DNA of 64,000 nucleotides. Source: Luteolibacter flavescens (GTDB lineage: Bacteria; Verrucomicrobiota; Verrucomicrobiia; Verrucomicrobiales; Akkermansiaceae). The notes under the pieces were generated by a model, which saw only the letters and a program-made list of their open reading frames with translations, had not been told where the DNA came from and did no database searches. This document shows, in pieces, positions 16,816 to 21,625 of the stretch. A program made the position numbers and the translations under genes. The stretch covers positions 186,001 to 250,000 of the forward strand of contig NZ_JAPDDS010000004.1 in NCBI RefSeq assembly GCF_025950085.1, read 5' to 3'. Within the stretch, counting starts at the first letter, position 1. Each line of letters begins with the position of its first letter.

Positions 16816-17216
16816 GAAGGAAGTAGGCAGCAGGTGGCGCGGGACCGGAAGGCGTTTCTTTCTACCGGGGGGCATTCTGCGGGAGCGCTGGAAATCGCTC
16901 CGGACCCGGACCGATTCCCGGGCTTCGGCGGGGATCAGTACACCGGAACACACAAATTGGCTTTCAAGTACACTCCAGATGCACGACAGTCCGCCGCGAG
17001 TGCTCGGAGGCCAAATTTTAGGGTCAATTTTTCAAAAAATTAGCCATCCGGGTGTTTGAAAAAGTGAATCCGGCAGTGGTGATGCATCCAAATTCACAAT
17101 ACAAATCACTGATTTATAGTGATTTAAAATTTCAACAGGGAAATTCTGAATTTGGTTTGACGGTGTTAGTGTACTTTGGTGAACTCTAGGGCATTCCGCG
17201 GGCGTTCCCGCCTCTG
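16816..17216 (+). promoter_or_regulatory. Gene-free A+T-rich region upstream of the dcw cluster, with an inverted repeat
   Basis: These 401 bp hold no gene. From about 16955 the sequence becomes A+T rich, unlike the surrounding DNA, as expected of a promoter region for the whole dcw cluster. A perfect 8-bp inverted repeat, AAATCACT (17103-17110) and AGTGATTT (17118-17125) with a 7-bp spacer, looks like an operator. A TTGACG at 17157-17162 is a possible -35 box, but I see no convincing -10 at the right distance. I could not identify the direct repeats bound by MraZ in other bacteria. Confidence 0.45.
17103..17125. promoter_or_regulatory. Operator-like inverted repeat upstream of mraZ
   Basis: AAATCACT and AGTGATTT are exact inverted copies separated by GATTTAT, about 90 bp before the mraZ start. 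The size and symmetry suit a dimeric repressor, but the binding protein is unknown. Confidence 0.35.
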
Positions 17217-17669
17217 ATGTCCTCCAAGTCCAAAGTCCACGAGAGTCATTTCGACTACAAGATGGACCCGAAGTTTCGGGTTTCCGTCCCTGTCGAGTGG
17301 CGCCCGGAGACCGAGGAGACGCCGATCCGGTTGCAGCTCTCCAAGGAGCACGACCTGCCGGTGATCAAGGTGTACGGCGAGGCGGAGTTCGACCTGAAGT
17401 TCGAGCAGGTGGAGCAGAGCAATCTGACCCCTGCGAAGAAGCAGCAGATCGTCGGGCACCTGCGGATGATGTCGAAGAAGGCCAGCGTCAGCAGCCAGGG
17501 CAAGCTCACCGTCCCGAAGGACTGGAGCGAGCGGGTCGGGCTGAAGGCGGATGGTCCGGTGATCCTCGCCGGCCGCGGCCCCTTCTACATGCTCTGCACG
17601 CAGGAGACCTTCGAACGCATCACCGAGATCGAGCTCGGCATGGACGACGGCGACCTCGGCGTCCTGTGA
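17217..17669 (+). CDS. mraZ: MraZ-like transcriptional regulator (SpoVT-AbrB fold)
   Basis: A 150-residue protein heading the dcw cluster. MraZ proteins carry two SpoVT/AbrB-like swapped-hairpin domains; here the repeats are visible as HFDYKMDPKFRVSVPVEW near the N-terminus and VSSQGKLTVPKDW near residue 95, the second close to the family D-x-x-G-R-(V/L)-x-I-P signature. MraZ binds the promoter of its own operon and represses it. The gene order (mraZ then rsmH) supports the call. The distance to the rsmH catalytic domain is unusually large because of a tandem repeat. Confidence 0.85.
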   Translation: MSSKSKVHESHFDYKMDPKFRVSVPVEWRPETEETPIRLQLSKEHDLPVIKVYGEAEFDLKFEQVEQSNLTPAKKQQIVGHLRMMSKKASVSSQGKLTVPKDWSERVGLKADGPVILAGRGPFYMLCTQETFERITEIELGMDDGDLGVL

Positions 17670-17718
17670 CAGACCACCCTTTTCCAGAAGATTTCACCCA
17701 CACCCACGAAGCGACAAC

Positions 17719-19314
17719 ATGCTGTTCGCCCCTCCAACCCTGGCATCCGCACAAGGCGGACTCGCGGCACCCACCGCGGGAGAAAGCCGGGTGCCGGGGT
17801 TGGCATCTGTTTTCCCATCGGTCCGGACCGGCGCACTCGGGACAGCGCGCCCTTCCGGCCATCCCTACACGGCTGTCCGTCTCGCGTTCCATGGCTGGTT
17901 GGCGGGGCGGCGGCCGGAGATTTTCCAGGCTGGGCGGATGAGGCTACTCGGGACAGTGCCTCCTTCGTCCCTTACATCGGTGATCCGCGCGGCTTCTGGC
18001 TGGTTGTCCGCGCGGGTCGCCGGCGATTTTCCATCCGAAACGACGGGCGCACTCGGGACAGCGCGCCTCTCGCTTCACACCCAAACGGCTGTCCGCCCCG
18101 CATTCCATGGCTGGTTGGCGGGTCGGCGGCCGATGGCTTTCCTGGCTGGGCGGAAGGGGTCACTCGGGACAGTACCCCTTTCGCTTTTCAATCCGTTGAT
18201 CCGCGCGGCTTCTGGCTGGTTGTCCGCGCGGGTCACCGGAAATTTTCCATCGGCACGGACCGGCGCACTCGGGACAGCGCGCCCTTCCGGCCATTCCCAA
18301 ACGGCTGTCCGCCCCGCATTCCATGGCTGGTTGGCGGGGCGGCGGCCGTCGGAGGGAGTTTTCCAGACAAATGAAGCGAACGGCTATCACCTCTCCGTGC
18401 TCCCTGCCGAGACGGTGGAGTGGATGGCCGCGCAGGAGGGCAAGCTGATCATCGACGGCACCCTCGGCGGTGGCGGTCACAGCGAGGCTTTCCTGAAGGC
18501 CGGCGCGTCCGTCATCGGCATCGACCGCGATCCCGAGGCACTCGCCTTCGCATCGCAGCGGCTGGCCGCCTATGGCGACCGCTTCCGCACCTGGCAGGGA
18601 AATTTCGCAGATCTCCGGGACATCCCCGAGGTCCGGGGGGAAACGCGGGCCGATGGCCTGCTTTTGGACCTCGGGGTCTCGTCCCGGCAGCTCGACGCCG
18701 CGGAGCGGGGCTTCTCGTTCCGCGGCGCGGGCCCCCTCGACATGCGCATGGGACCTGCATGTCCCTTTGACGCCGCGCACGTGGTGAATACGTGGGCGGA
18801 GTCGGAGCTGGTCCGTATTTTCTTCGAGCTCGGCGAGGAGCCAAAGGCCCGCCGAATCGCCGCCGCCATCGTGAAACGCCGCGCCGAGCGCGAGTTCACG
18901 ACCACGACGGATCTGGCCGAGTGCATCGAAAAGGTCATCGGCCGCCACGGCCGCATCCACCCGGCGACGAAGGCCTTCCAAGCCATCCGCATGACGGTGA
19001 ATGACGAGCTCGGCTCGCTGGAGCGCGCGATGGAAGCCGCGCTCGACGTGCTGAAGCCGGGAGGCCGCCTGCTGATCATCACTTTCCACAGCCTGGAGGA
19101 CCGCATGGTGAAGCGCTTCATGCAGCACCGCGCGAAGCCTTGGCTGGACCAGCCCGACTGGCCGGCACCGCGGCCGAATCCCGACTGGTGCCTGCACCTT
19201 CCTGTTAGAAAAGCGATCGCAGCCAGCGACGCAGAGATCCGAATCAACCCGCGGGCCCGCAGTGCAAAACTGCGGGTCGCCGAGCTTCTGGACCCCACCG
19301 TCTCACCCCGATGA
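17719..19314 (+). CDS. rsmH: 16S rRNA (cytosine1402-N4)-methyltransferase RsmH with a repeat-encoded N-terminal extension
   Basis: RsmH N4-methylates C1402 in the 16S rRNA decoding centre. The SAM-dependent fold begins at YHLSVLPAETVEW (from 18385) and has DGTLGGGGHSEAF, IDRDPEA, LLLDLGVSSRQLD, RGFSFRGAGPLDMRM and a late ITFHSLEDRMVKRF. From 18385 it is about 310 residues, the usual length. The start is unresolved. The frame is open from an ATG at 17719 through 222 extra codons made of tandem repeat; a TTG at 18331 and GTG at 18397 lack ribosome-binding sites. An ATG at 18371, 12 bp after GGAGGGAG, is out of frame. The extension may not be translated. The stop overlaps the ftsL start. Confidence 0.9.
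   Translation: MLFAPPTLASAQGGLAAPTAGESRVPGLASVFPSVRTGALGTARPSGHPYTAVRLAFHGWLAGRRPEIFQAGRMRLLGTVPPSSLTSVIRAASGWLSARVAGDFPSETTGALGTARLSLHTQTAVRPAFHGWLAGRRPMAFLAGRKGSLGTVPLSLFNPLIRAASGWLSARVTGNFPSARTGALGTARPSGHSQTAVRPAFHGWLAGRRPSEGVFQTNEANGYHLSVLPAETVEWMAAQEGKLIIDGTLGGGGHSEAFLKAGASVIGIDRDPEALAFASQRLAAYGDRFRTWQGNFADLRDIPEVRGETRADGLLLDLGVSSRQLDAAERGFSFRGAGPLDMRMGPACPFDAAHVVNTWAESELVRIFFELGEEPKARRIAAAIVKRRAEREFTTTTDLAECIEKVIGRHGRIHPATKAFQAIRMTVNDELGSLERAMEAALDVLKPGGRLLIITFHSLEDRMVKRFMQHRAKPWLDQPDWPAPRPNPDWCLHLPVRKAIAASDAEIRINPRARSAKLRVAELLDPTVSPR
17812..18348. repeat. 216-bp-period tandem repeat between mraZ and the rsmH domain
   Basis: The word ACTCGGGACAG recurs at about 17835, 17946, 18051, 18162 and 18267. 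The spacings alternate 111 and 105 bp, so the true unit is 216 bp with two related halves, present about 2.5 times. One half carries CATTCCATGGCTGGTTGGCG followed by GGCGGCCG; the other carries GCGGCTTCTGGCTGGTTGTC. Both half-units and the full unit are divisible by three, so the frame fused to rsmH stays open. Units differ by scattered substitutions. Confidence 0.9.
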
Positions 19315-19670
19315 ATCGACTCCGCTCCGAGCCCACGACTCATATCTCCGTTTTCATCACGCTGATCCTCGCCGCACTGGTGGTGATCGCCGGCGGCATC
19401 ATGCACGCGGTGGCGAAGAACTCGCAGGTGCAGGTGGAGCGCCAGATCGACCAGGCGCAGACGCGCATCGAGCAGACGAAGGTGAAGATCCGCATGATCG
19501 AGGTGCGGACGGACAAGCTGCTCGACCGATTTGAAATGAAGGAGCGGCTCAAGGAGTCCGGCTCCGGTCTCGTACCCATCACTCCCGCCGACATCGAGGA
19601 GGTCCGCCCGCGGCAGTTGCCCGTGGCCCGGCCCGGCTCGGAGGTCGCCGATGTCCGCGAGCCATCATGA
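19311..19670 (+). CDS. ftsL: FtsL-like division protein
   Basis: A 119-residue bitopic membrane protein in the position of ftsL, overlapping rsmH (ATGA at 19311-19314) and ftsI. A short basic N-terminus precedes one transmembrane helix (about residues 13-32, VFITLILAALVVIAGGIMHA). A coiled coil (VERQIDQAQTRIEQTKVKIRMIEVRTDKLLDRF) follows, and a proline-rich tail ends it. FtsL pairs with FtsB/DivIC in the divisome. The FtsL sequence is poorly conserved, so the call rests on topology and position. Confidence 0.75.
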   Translation: MNRLRSEPTTHISVFITLILAALVVIAGGIMHAVAKNSQVQVERQIDQAQTRIEQTKVKIRMIEVRTDKLLDRFEMKERLKESGSGLVPITPADIEEVRPRQLPVARPGSEVADVREPS

Positions 19671-21625
19671 CCCGGAGACACTTTCAGACCAGGTGTGTGT
19701 TGCTGTGCTCGGTCCTTGTGACCGGGCTCAGCGTGCTTTCAGTGCGCTTGATCCAGATCCAGGTGTGGGATCGGAAACACTACGCGAACAAGGCCCGCCA
19801 GACCTTCGAGCGCCGCGAGGTGCTCGCGGGTCTGCGCGGGACGATCGTGGACCGGAATGAGGAAGTGCTGGCGAAGAGCATGCCGGTGGCCTCCGTCTTC
19901 GTGGACCTGAATCACCTGACGGACCCGCTTCTCGTCTCCTTCCCGCTGGCCTACGAGCGCGCGAGCGCGGAGGCGGACTGGGAGACCCTCTCGCCGCAGG
20001 ACCGGAAGAGCCGCGTGTATGCCGAGCGCAGCGTCATCCTGAAGGACGCCGAGGACATGCCGCCCGGCACGCTGGTCGAAAAGGGCATCGCCCAGGCGGT
20101 GAGCCTGCTCGCGCGCCCGCTGGGCATGAAGCGCGAGGACATGCACTCGCAGATCAAGAAGGCGGTCGATCGCCGCTCGATGGAGTTTTGCCTGGTGAAG
20201 GATCGCCCCGCCGACGACATCGAGCGCGTCCGCGAGATCATCTCGAAGCACTGGCTGGAAGGCTTCTTCCTGCGCGAGTCCTTCAAGCGCTGGTACACCT
20301 CGCCGGATCTGGCGACGCACGTCGTGGGCTTCACGGGCGAGCAGGAGGATATCGATGAGAACGGACGCAAGACCTTCCGTCCGGTGGGGAAATTCGGCAT
20401 CGAGTCCGCGCTGGAGGAATATCTCGCCGGCAGCGATGGCTGGCAGGAGCACCGCCGTGCGCCGAACGGTGCGCGCATCCCCGGGGATACGAGCAGCCTG
20501 AAGCCGCCGCGCGCCGGGCTGGACGTGCAGCTCACGCTGGACATGGGCGTGCAGGCGATCGTGGAGGAAGAGCTGGATGCCGCGCTCACCGACTGGGAGA
20601 GCAAGCGCGGGTGCATCATCGTGATGGACCCGAAGACCAGCGAGATCCTCGGCATGGCCAGCAGGCCGCATTTCAATCTCAACACGCTGAAGGACATCGG
20701 CAAGGACCAGCGCGGCATGAATTTCGCCATGCAGGCGATCTACGAGCCGGGTAGTACCATCAAGATCGTGGCAGCAGCCGCCGCCATGAACGAGAGGCTC
20801 GTCACGCCGCAGACCTCCATCTTTTGCCACAACGGCCTCTACCAGCAGGGGAAGGTCCGCGTGCCGGATCACCACCCCTACGGCTACCTCTCCGTGGAAG
20901 GCGTGCTCGCGAAGTCGAGCAACATCGGTGCCTACAAGCTGGGCCAGCAGCTCGGCTCGGGCCGCTTCTACGAATACATGGCCGACTTCGGCTTTGGGAA
21001 AAAATCCGGCATCCTCCTCAGCGGCGAGAGCCGCGGCGTGGTGCGGAATTCCGGGAATCCGGTGGACTTCTCCCGTGCGACCTATGGCTACGCACTGGCG
21101 GTGACGCCGCTGCAGGTGGCCTCCGCCTACTGCGCCATCGCGAGCGACGGCAAGCTGCGCAAGCCGCACATCGTGAAATCGATCACCGCGAACAACGGCG
21201 TGGTGGTCGAAGAATTCGAGCCCGAGGTGGTAAGCGAGGTCCTGCGCCCGGAGACGGCGAAGGCCATGCGCGGCGCACTGCAGAAGGTGGTGGACGTGAA
21301 GGGCACCGCTCTGCAGGCAAAGGTGCCGGGCTACAGCGGCGCGGGGAAAACCGGGACCGCCGTCCGCATCGAAAAAGGCCGATATCAGGCCGGGCACTAC
21401 ACCGTATCCTACGCGGGCATGCTGCCGGCAAAGGATCCCGCCTTCGTGTGCGTGGTGGTCATCGACGATCCGCTCACCACGAAGGTCTCCCGCTACGGCG
21501 GCACCATCGCCGCTCCCGTTTTCGCCAAGGTCGGCACCCGACTCGCCGCCCACATGAATCTCACCCCGGACGAGCCGGTGGAGGAGAAGGACAAGGACAA
21601 GCTCGCCGGAACCAAGAAACCGTGA
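19667..21625 (+). CDS. ftsI: Peptidoglycan D,D-transpeptidase FtsI (class B PBP3)
   Basis: A 652-residue penicillin-binding protein that cross-links septal peptidoglycan. The N-terminal membrane anchor is at about residues 11-29, followed by the dimerisation domain and the transpeptidase domain. The catalytic motifs are S363-T-I-K (with K366), S417-S-N, and K561-T-G. The ATG overlaps the ftsL stop (ATGA), and the stop overlaps the GTG start of murE. The order ftsL-ftsI-murE-murF is that of the classical dcw cluster. Confidence 0.96.
   Translation: MTRRHFQTRCVLLCSVLVTGLSVLSVRLIQIQVWDRKHYANKARQTFERREVLAGLRGTIVDRNEEVLAKSMPVASVFVDLNHLTDPLLVSFPLAYERASAEADWETLSPQDRKSRVYAERSVILKDAEDMPPGTLVEKGIAQAVSLLARPLGMKREDMHSQIKKAVDRRSMEFCLVKDRPADDIERVREIISKHWLEGFFLRESFKRWYTSPDLATHVVGFTGEQEDIDENGRKTFRPVGKFGIESALEEYLAGSDGWQEHRRAPNGARIPGDTSSLKPPRAGLDVQLTLDMGVQAIVEEELDAALTDWESKRGCIIVMDPKTSEILGMASRPHFNLNTLKDIGKDQRGMNFAMQAIYEPGSTIKIVAAAAAMNERLVTPQTSIFCHNGLYQQGKVRVPDHHPYGYLSVEGVLAKSSNIGAYKLGQQLGSGRFYEYMADFGFGKKSGILLSGESRGVVRNSGNPVDFSRATYGYALAVTPLQVASAYCAIASDGKLRKPHIVKSITANNGVVVEEFEPEVVSEVLRPETAKAMRGALQKVVDVKGTALQAKVPGYSGAGKTGTAVRIEKGRYQAGHYTVSYAGMLPAKDPAFVCVVVIDDPLTTKVSRYGGTIAAPVFAKVGTRLAAHMNLTPDEPVEEKDKDKLAGTKKP

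Follow-up and report, generated by a model that had tools for sequence, protein, structure and literature searches.

In Luteolibacter flavescens, the gene for the methyltransferase RsmH opens with a long in-frame extension whose RNA is organized as a leader stem-loop, P0, followed by a tandem array of five two-hairpin units. The region lies within a window of 64,000 nucleotides, the whole stretch of DNA that was analyzed, between mraZ and the part of the gene encoding the RsmH domain (Table 1). We are highly confident that the extension is both translated and structured as RNA. That P0 and the array together form a translated, cis-acting mRNA element is a reading we hold with moderate confidence, and the specific mechanism proposed below, in which P0 is a starting block and the loops are a platform, is offered tentatively.

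Tandem Repeats Finder places a tandem repeat at 17826-18348, with a period of 216, 2.4 copies, 83% matches, and a score of 723; a second solution for the same array has a period of 111 in 3.1 copies. Successive units start 111, 105, 111, and 105 nt apart, which bears out a preliminary description of about 2.5 copies of a 216-bp unit, with halves of 111 and 105 bp, between mraZ and the RsmH domain. Every half-unit comprises two hairpins, H1 with the loop CUCGGGACAG and H2 with a loop ending in UGGCUGGUU, and these loops are nearly invariant. The H1 loop, ACTCGGGACAG, occurs five times in the window, always inside the array, against a chance expectation of 1.4 (at most one mismatch allowed), and none of the shuffles reached five. 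The array is no assembly oddity, because independently assembled species carry it too, including the single-contig genomes G002 and G010.

Table 1. Features of the mraZ-ftsI region, in window positions.
Feature	Position	Strand	Details
mraZ	17217-17669	+	ORF; 49 nt upstream of rsmH start; gene order conserved in relatives
rsmH reading frame with N-terminal extension	17719-19314	+	ORF, 531 aa; RsmH domain from about 18379
Conserved start ATGCTGTTCGCCC (MLFA)	17719-17731	+	Start conserved across species
P0 leader stem-loop	17734-17803	+	Outer stem 17734-17748 with 17789-17803; inner hairpin 17761-17767 with 17774-17780
Unit 1, type A, 111 nt	17827-17937	+	H1 17830-17851, loop core 17836-17845; H2 17870-17916, loop core 17893-17901
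Unit 2, type B, 105 nt	17938-18042	+	H1 17938-17964, loop core 17947-17956; H2 17978-18022, loop core 17998-18006
Unit 3, type A, 111 nt	18043-18153	+	H1 18046-18067; H2 18086-18132
Unit 4, type B, 105 nt	18154-18258	+	H1 18154-18180; H2 18194-18238
Unit 5, type A, last	18259-18348	+	H1 18262-18283; H2 18302-18348
ftsL	19311-19670	+	4-nt overlap with rsmH; FtsL family match only weak
ftsI-type transpeptidase	19667-21625	+	4-nt overlap with ftsL; penicillin-binding protein families strong

Comparison among relatives indicates that RsmH bears a translated N-terminal extension, because in 30 species the rsmH frame contains no stop (0 in 5,737 codons), whereas the other two forward frames hold 144. 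These species belong to two genera of Verrucomicrobiales, one Haloferula/Neoluteolibacter-like and the other Luteolibacter, genus names being taken from the record titles. The first 15 species have no stop in 3,253 codons of frame 0 and 25-52 in each of the five other frames, and 15 sister-genus loci have none in 2,484 codons and 44 and 37 in the others; shared ancestry makes these counts non-independent, yet it does not account for a contrast between frames of one and the same DNA. The sole apparent frame break, in locus L116, is a run of 100 Ns marking a scaffold gap within the array. In the 15 species measured, the conserved ATG(C/T)TGTTC lies 453-942 nt before the RsmH domain, a multiple of three in every case, whereas the spacing from the mraZ stop to that ATG (28-56 nt) is not restricted to multiples of three. 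The RsmH domain itself matches TIGR00006 at residues 222-522 (E 1.6e-93; 313.6 bits against a curated cut-off of 154.3). No obvious Shine-Dalgarno sequence lies upstream of the start at 17719. A start downstream of the array was rejected, since the ATG nearest the domain, at 18371, is not in the rsmH frame, and 24 of 29 species lack an in-frame ATG after the array or last hairpin. Both the open frame running through the repeat into rsmH and the repetitive N-terminal segment of RsmH, as first described, are thus upheld.

The hairpins of the units are marked by compensatory change. In type A units, 96.2% of cells are paired and double changes occur at 10 of 20 pairs, giving 41 double-change cells compared with 14.3 in shuffles; the corresponding values for type B units are 94.3%, 10 of 22 pairs, and 38 compared with 11.9. 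For both types, the signal collapses when the pairing partners are slid. H2 was also followed in 72 sister-genus units, nearly all outside model building (a few from L099 and L065 repeat model sequences), where 129 double-change cells were counted against 40.9 (e.g., A-U 33 and U-A 27) in an alignment that was fitted to the model and hence leans towards it. The folded molecule is evidently the + strand RNA, because G-U outnumbers A-C in the stems by 71 cells to 10. The window strand has an overall fold z of -9.6, but the reverse strand also scores (-7.2), so the strand call rests on the G-U/A-C test.

Within the 5' arm of H2, a UCCG segment (e.g., 17876-17879) is nearly invariant (67, 66, 75, and 75 of 75 units), in contrast to the remainder of the stem, which covaries; the U of the segment is bulged in type A units. 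Because the invariant H1 loop contains GGA, to which UCCG is complementary, an alternative pairing of the H1 loop with the H2 arm is possible, one without covariation by which to assess it.

P0 begins at ORF nucleotide +16, inside an 85-nt block that is almost indel-free among 22 aligned species. Pairing across these species reaches 94.8% in the outer stem, where double changes are seen at 10 of 15 pairs; over the entire leader, double-change cells number 54, compared with 16.8 in shuffles. A strong stem-loop just after a similarly placed start is also seen in several other, array-less genera of the family (fold z -2.3 to -4.2 in L020, L023, L024, L028, L031, and L041). The activating stem-loop of fepA likewise lies inside the ORF, at around +20 (Jagodnik et al., 2017, as described in PMC12692685). 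As far as that description goes, the fepA and bamA stem-loops resemble P0 in lying within the ORF at a defined spacing from the start codon, which for P0 is fixed at +16 in the 22 species. In contrast to fepA and bamA, P0, whose activating role is putative, is followed by between one and eight two-hairpin units whose loops are conserved.

Selection acts mainly on the RNA, the peptide being less strictly kept. In close pairs of species, dS is 0.10-0.32 in the extension and 0.38-0.86 in the RsmH domain, whereas dN/dS is 0.46-0.88 and 0.04-0.20, respectively; synonymous sites of the extension thus change 2-5 times more slowly than those of the domain, whereas its amino-acid sequence changes 1.3-3.6 times faster. 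Within the loop codons (CTC GGG ACA; GGC), the wobble bases are the same in 73-75 of 75 units. The H1 loop is read out of its usual frame in 6 of 116 units, which represent at least two independent lineages; SGQ then replaces LGT, and compensating indels restore the frame before H2.

The distribution of the array was traced by extracting the mraZ-rsmH gaps of relatives with RsmH as a guide and by searching genomes with a covariance model of the unit, R1, whose E-values are rough owing to a shortened calibration. In the L. flavescens genome, R1 finds only the five local units and nothing else above noise. Of 260 genomes from the family, 88 are positive; all 88 fall within two genera, and they include Luteolibacter pohnpeiensis, Haloferula rosea, and 'Luteolibacter marinus' (now Neoluteolibacter marinus). 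Wherever rsmH shares their contig, the units immediately precede the RsmH domain, in frame with it. Almost every member of the window's genus has the array, usually of five units, although G004 and G006 have three and G016 has four, and the sister genus has up to eight (eight in G029). The preliminary description had also suggested a variable repeat, and these copy numbers do not support a fast-changing one; it had further overlooked the RNA hairpins, P0, and the family-wide conservation. Three draft assemblies are broken inside the array (G001, G013, and G014; loci L015, L019, and L013), so many MAGs probably understate the copy number. In the incomplete assembly G011, no match to the array was found. 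Elsewhere in the family, most genera have no array, and it is therefore not required for rsmH expression in general. Isolated pattern matches in other phyla look like chance, the pattern being loose. MAGs labeled Prosthecobacter debontii (L054, L068, and L103) bear a Luteolibacter-type array, and their labels are probably wrong.

The gene upstream, mraZ, encodes a product with a weak match to NF001477 (E 6e-7, below cut-off). MraZ proteins of this group gave no match to Pfam MraZ and matched NCBIfam MraZ models only below their cut-offs; MraZ is very divergent here. A sigma-70-like promoter match, TTCACA-16-TATAGT, lies in A+T-rich sequence upstream of mraZ at 17093-17120 (one found, 0.5 expected).

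These features would fit an element that acts on the mRNA in which it resides. RsmH translation very probably starts at the ATG at 17719, so that ribosomes cross P0 and then the five two-hairpin units on their way to the methyltransferase domain. P0, at its fixed distance from the AUG, may serve as a starting block that aids 30S initiation, similar to those of fepA and bamA, although it could instead be inhibitory to initiation. The H1 and H2 loops are probably recognized by a factor, because stem stability alone conserves no loop sequence. Repeated in every unit, the loops could form a multivalent platform for a trans factor, protein or RNA, that would set the translation efficiency or lifetime of the rsmH mRNA. 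Folding of the array under continual ribosome traffic would need time or a low ribosome density. It is plausible, as first suggested, that the array tunes rsmH and the genes downstream; changes in rsmH translation may pass through the two 4-nt overlaps to the amounts of FtsL and FtsI.

An unlikely alternative is that stable RNA fragments are cut from the array in the rsmH mRNA and act in trans, for instance as sponges or as protein decoys that display the two loops in many copies. In E. coli, decRNAs are fragments detected by RNA-seq from the coding sequence of mraZ-rsmH-ftsL-ftsI-murE (PMC6156199), and FtsO comes from the same operon (PMC7815308). Like the array, these are structured RNAs in coding sequence with constrained synonymous sites, and the lower dS of the extension relative to the rest of rsmH and its nearly invariant loops are consistent with such a role. 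UpsM of Rhodobacter sphaeroides, a leader RNA of the dcw cluster, adds a precedent for structured RNA at the start of this cluster (PMC5089854). The likeness has limits, however: the E. coli RNAs lie within ordinary domains, whereas the array is a dedicated repetitive extension, and UpsM is an untranslated 5' leader that ends in a terminator upstream of mraZ, whereas the array is translated and lies downstream of mraZ. A purely trans role leaves the fixed distance between P0 and the AUG unexplained.

It is less probable still that the element senses RsmH activity, in that the structured early codons of rsmH would be translated well only by ribosomes marked with m4C1402, the mark made by RsmH, and rsmH would thereby depend on its own product for expression. 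In Bacillus subtilis, mRNAs with early stem-loops, among them those of cmpA, isp, and yukJ, need MraW-modified ribosomes to be translated efficiently, including one whose stem-loop is confined to codons 2-11 (preprint, PMC13317604). P0 similarly sits in early codons, and RsmH/MraW is the link in both cases; here, however, the mRNA is that of rsmH itself, and a dependence on methylation is hypothetical. Such sensing would create a positive loop that gives no homeostasis and would work without conserved loop sequences, and the effect is known from another phylum and from other genes. A combined form, in which P0 and the array sense the methylation of C1402 by RsmH and the loop modules add a dedicated factor, seems rather improbable. 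If true, it would link the modification state of ribosomes to FtsL and FtsI production through the overlapping genes. Mimicry of, or antisense pairing to, the RsmH target in 16S rRNA, an idea raised by CCATGGCTGGTTG, was rejected as no better than shuffled sequence.

Tandem two-hairpin RNA elements that act on RNA polymerase are represented by the put sites of phage HK022. By analogy, the nascent array could promote processive antitermination or pausing near the start of a long division operon, and a long cluster does follow it. Nevertheless, this is very improbable: the array lies in translated sequence, where ribosomes would disrupt the hairpins, and the + strand has no intrinsic terminator-like site in 16900-19800, which also led us to reject an intrinsic terminator or attenuator.

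We give even less credence to the view that the repeat peptide is the functional part, for example as a basic tail of RsmH, with the RNA hairpins secondary. The frame is strictly kept, and the peptide has recurring LGT, GWL, and R-rich motifs. However, dN/dS is 0.46-0.88 with slow synonymous sites, the stems covary at the expense of the amino acids, and the loops are kept even when read in another frame. The extension has no Pfam or NCBIfam domain match and is predicted to be disordered, with an AlphaFold2 pLDDT of about 25 for residues 1-221 compared with mostly 70-97 for the enzyme.

Rickettsia palindromic elements are palindromic sequences found in frame in protein-coding genes and dispersed over many of them. 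That the array is a selfish repeat of this kind, landed in frame by chance, is hardly credible despite its palindromic in-frame units and a copy number that differs among species, since the five units occupy a single locus in their own genome, occur only at rsmH in relatives, show long-term conservation and covariation across two genera, and have no match in plasmid and phage collections; a dispersed mobile element is largely refuted.

The array looks undescribed in Rfam and the literature searched, although parallels to its possible working exist. Among open-licence papers, no description of it in Luteolibacter or Verrucomicrobia was found. Rfam 15 returned no family at or near its gathering score, the only matches being chance-level ones on the - strand below gathering. 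The mraW RNA motif (RF01746) is a structured RNA associated with mraW in Actinomycetales (PMC2864571). The array also adjoins the RsmH domain, but it is tandem, lies inside the translated frame, and belongs to another phylum. The RF01746 covariance model had no match in the L. flavescens genome, nor in the region at E up to 10, and detected its Corynebacterium glutamicum positive control. In kind, the element is a cis-acting structured mRNA; its tandem array inside a translated frame is what is unusual. It lends itself to studying how ribosomes cross, and are controlled by, hairpins within an ORF, as well as possible feedback of rRNA methylation on the enzyme that carries it out. In addition, gene finders would tend to call an oddly long RsmH or to shift the start into the array, which would hide the RNA.

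Three further observations concern rsmH and similar genes. In locus L021 (G026), from another genus, rsmH can be read in the final 190 nt before the RsmH domain as starting MAGREEEQGTAPF, and hairpins with a AAGGGACGG loop at the CATGGCTGGGCGG start region resemble the MAGR...LGT part of the array; this hints that the array may have originated by duplication of the rsmH start. The mraZ-rsmH gap of L028 (G028) contains a different hairpin, GG(C/T)CGGGATGACTTGGAGGGAGTCCCGCC, twice, once at the start of the rsmH frame. Finally, many genomes encode, besides the dcw copy, a second RsmH-like methyltransferase that is 35-40% identical to RsmH (in G000, at C1:516932-517699, outside the window, with comparable positions in relatives).
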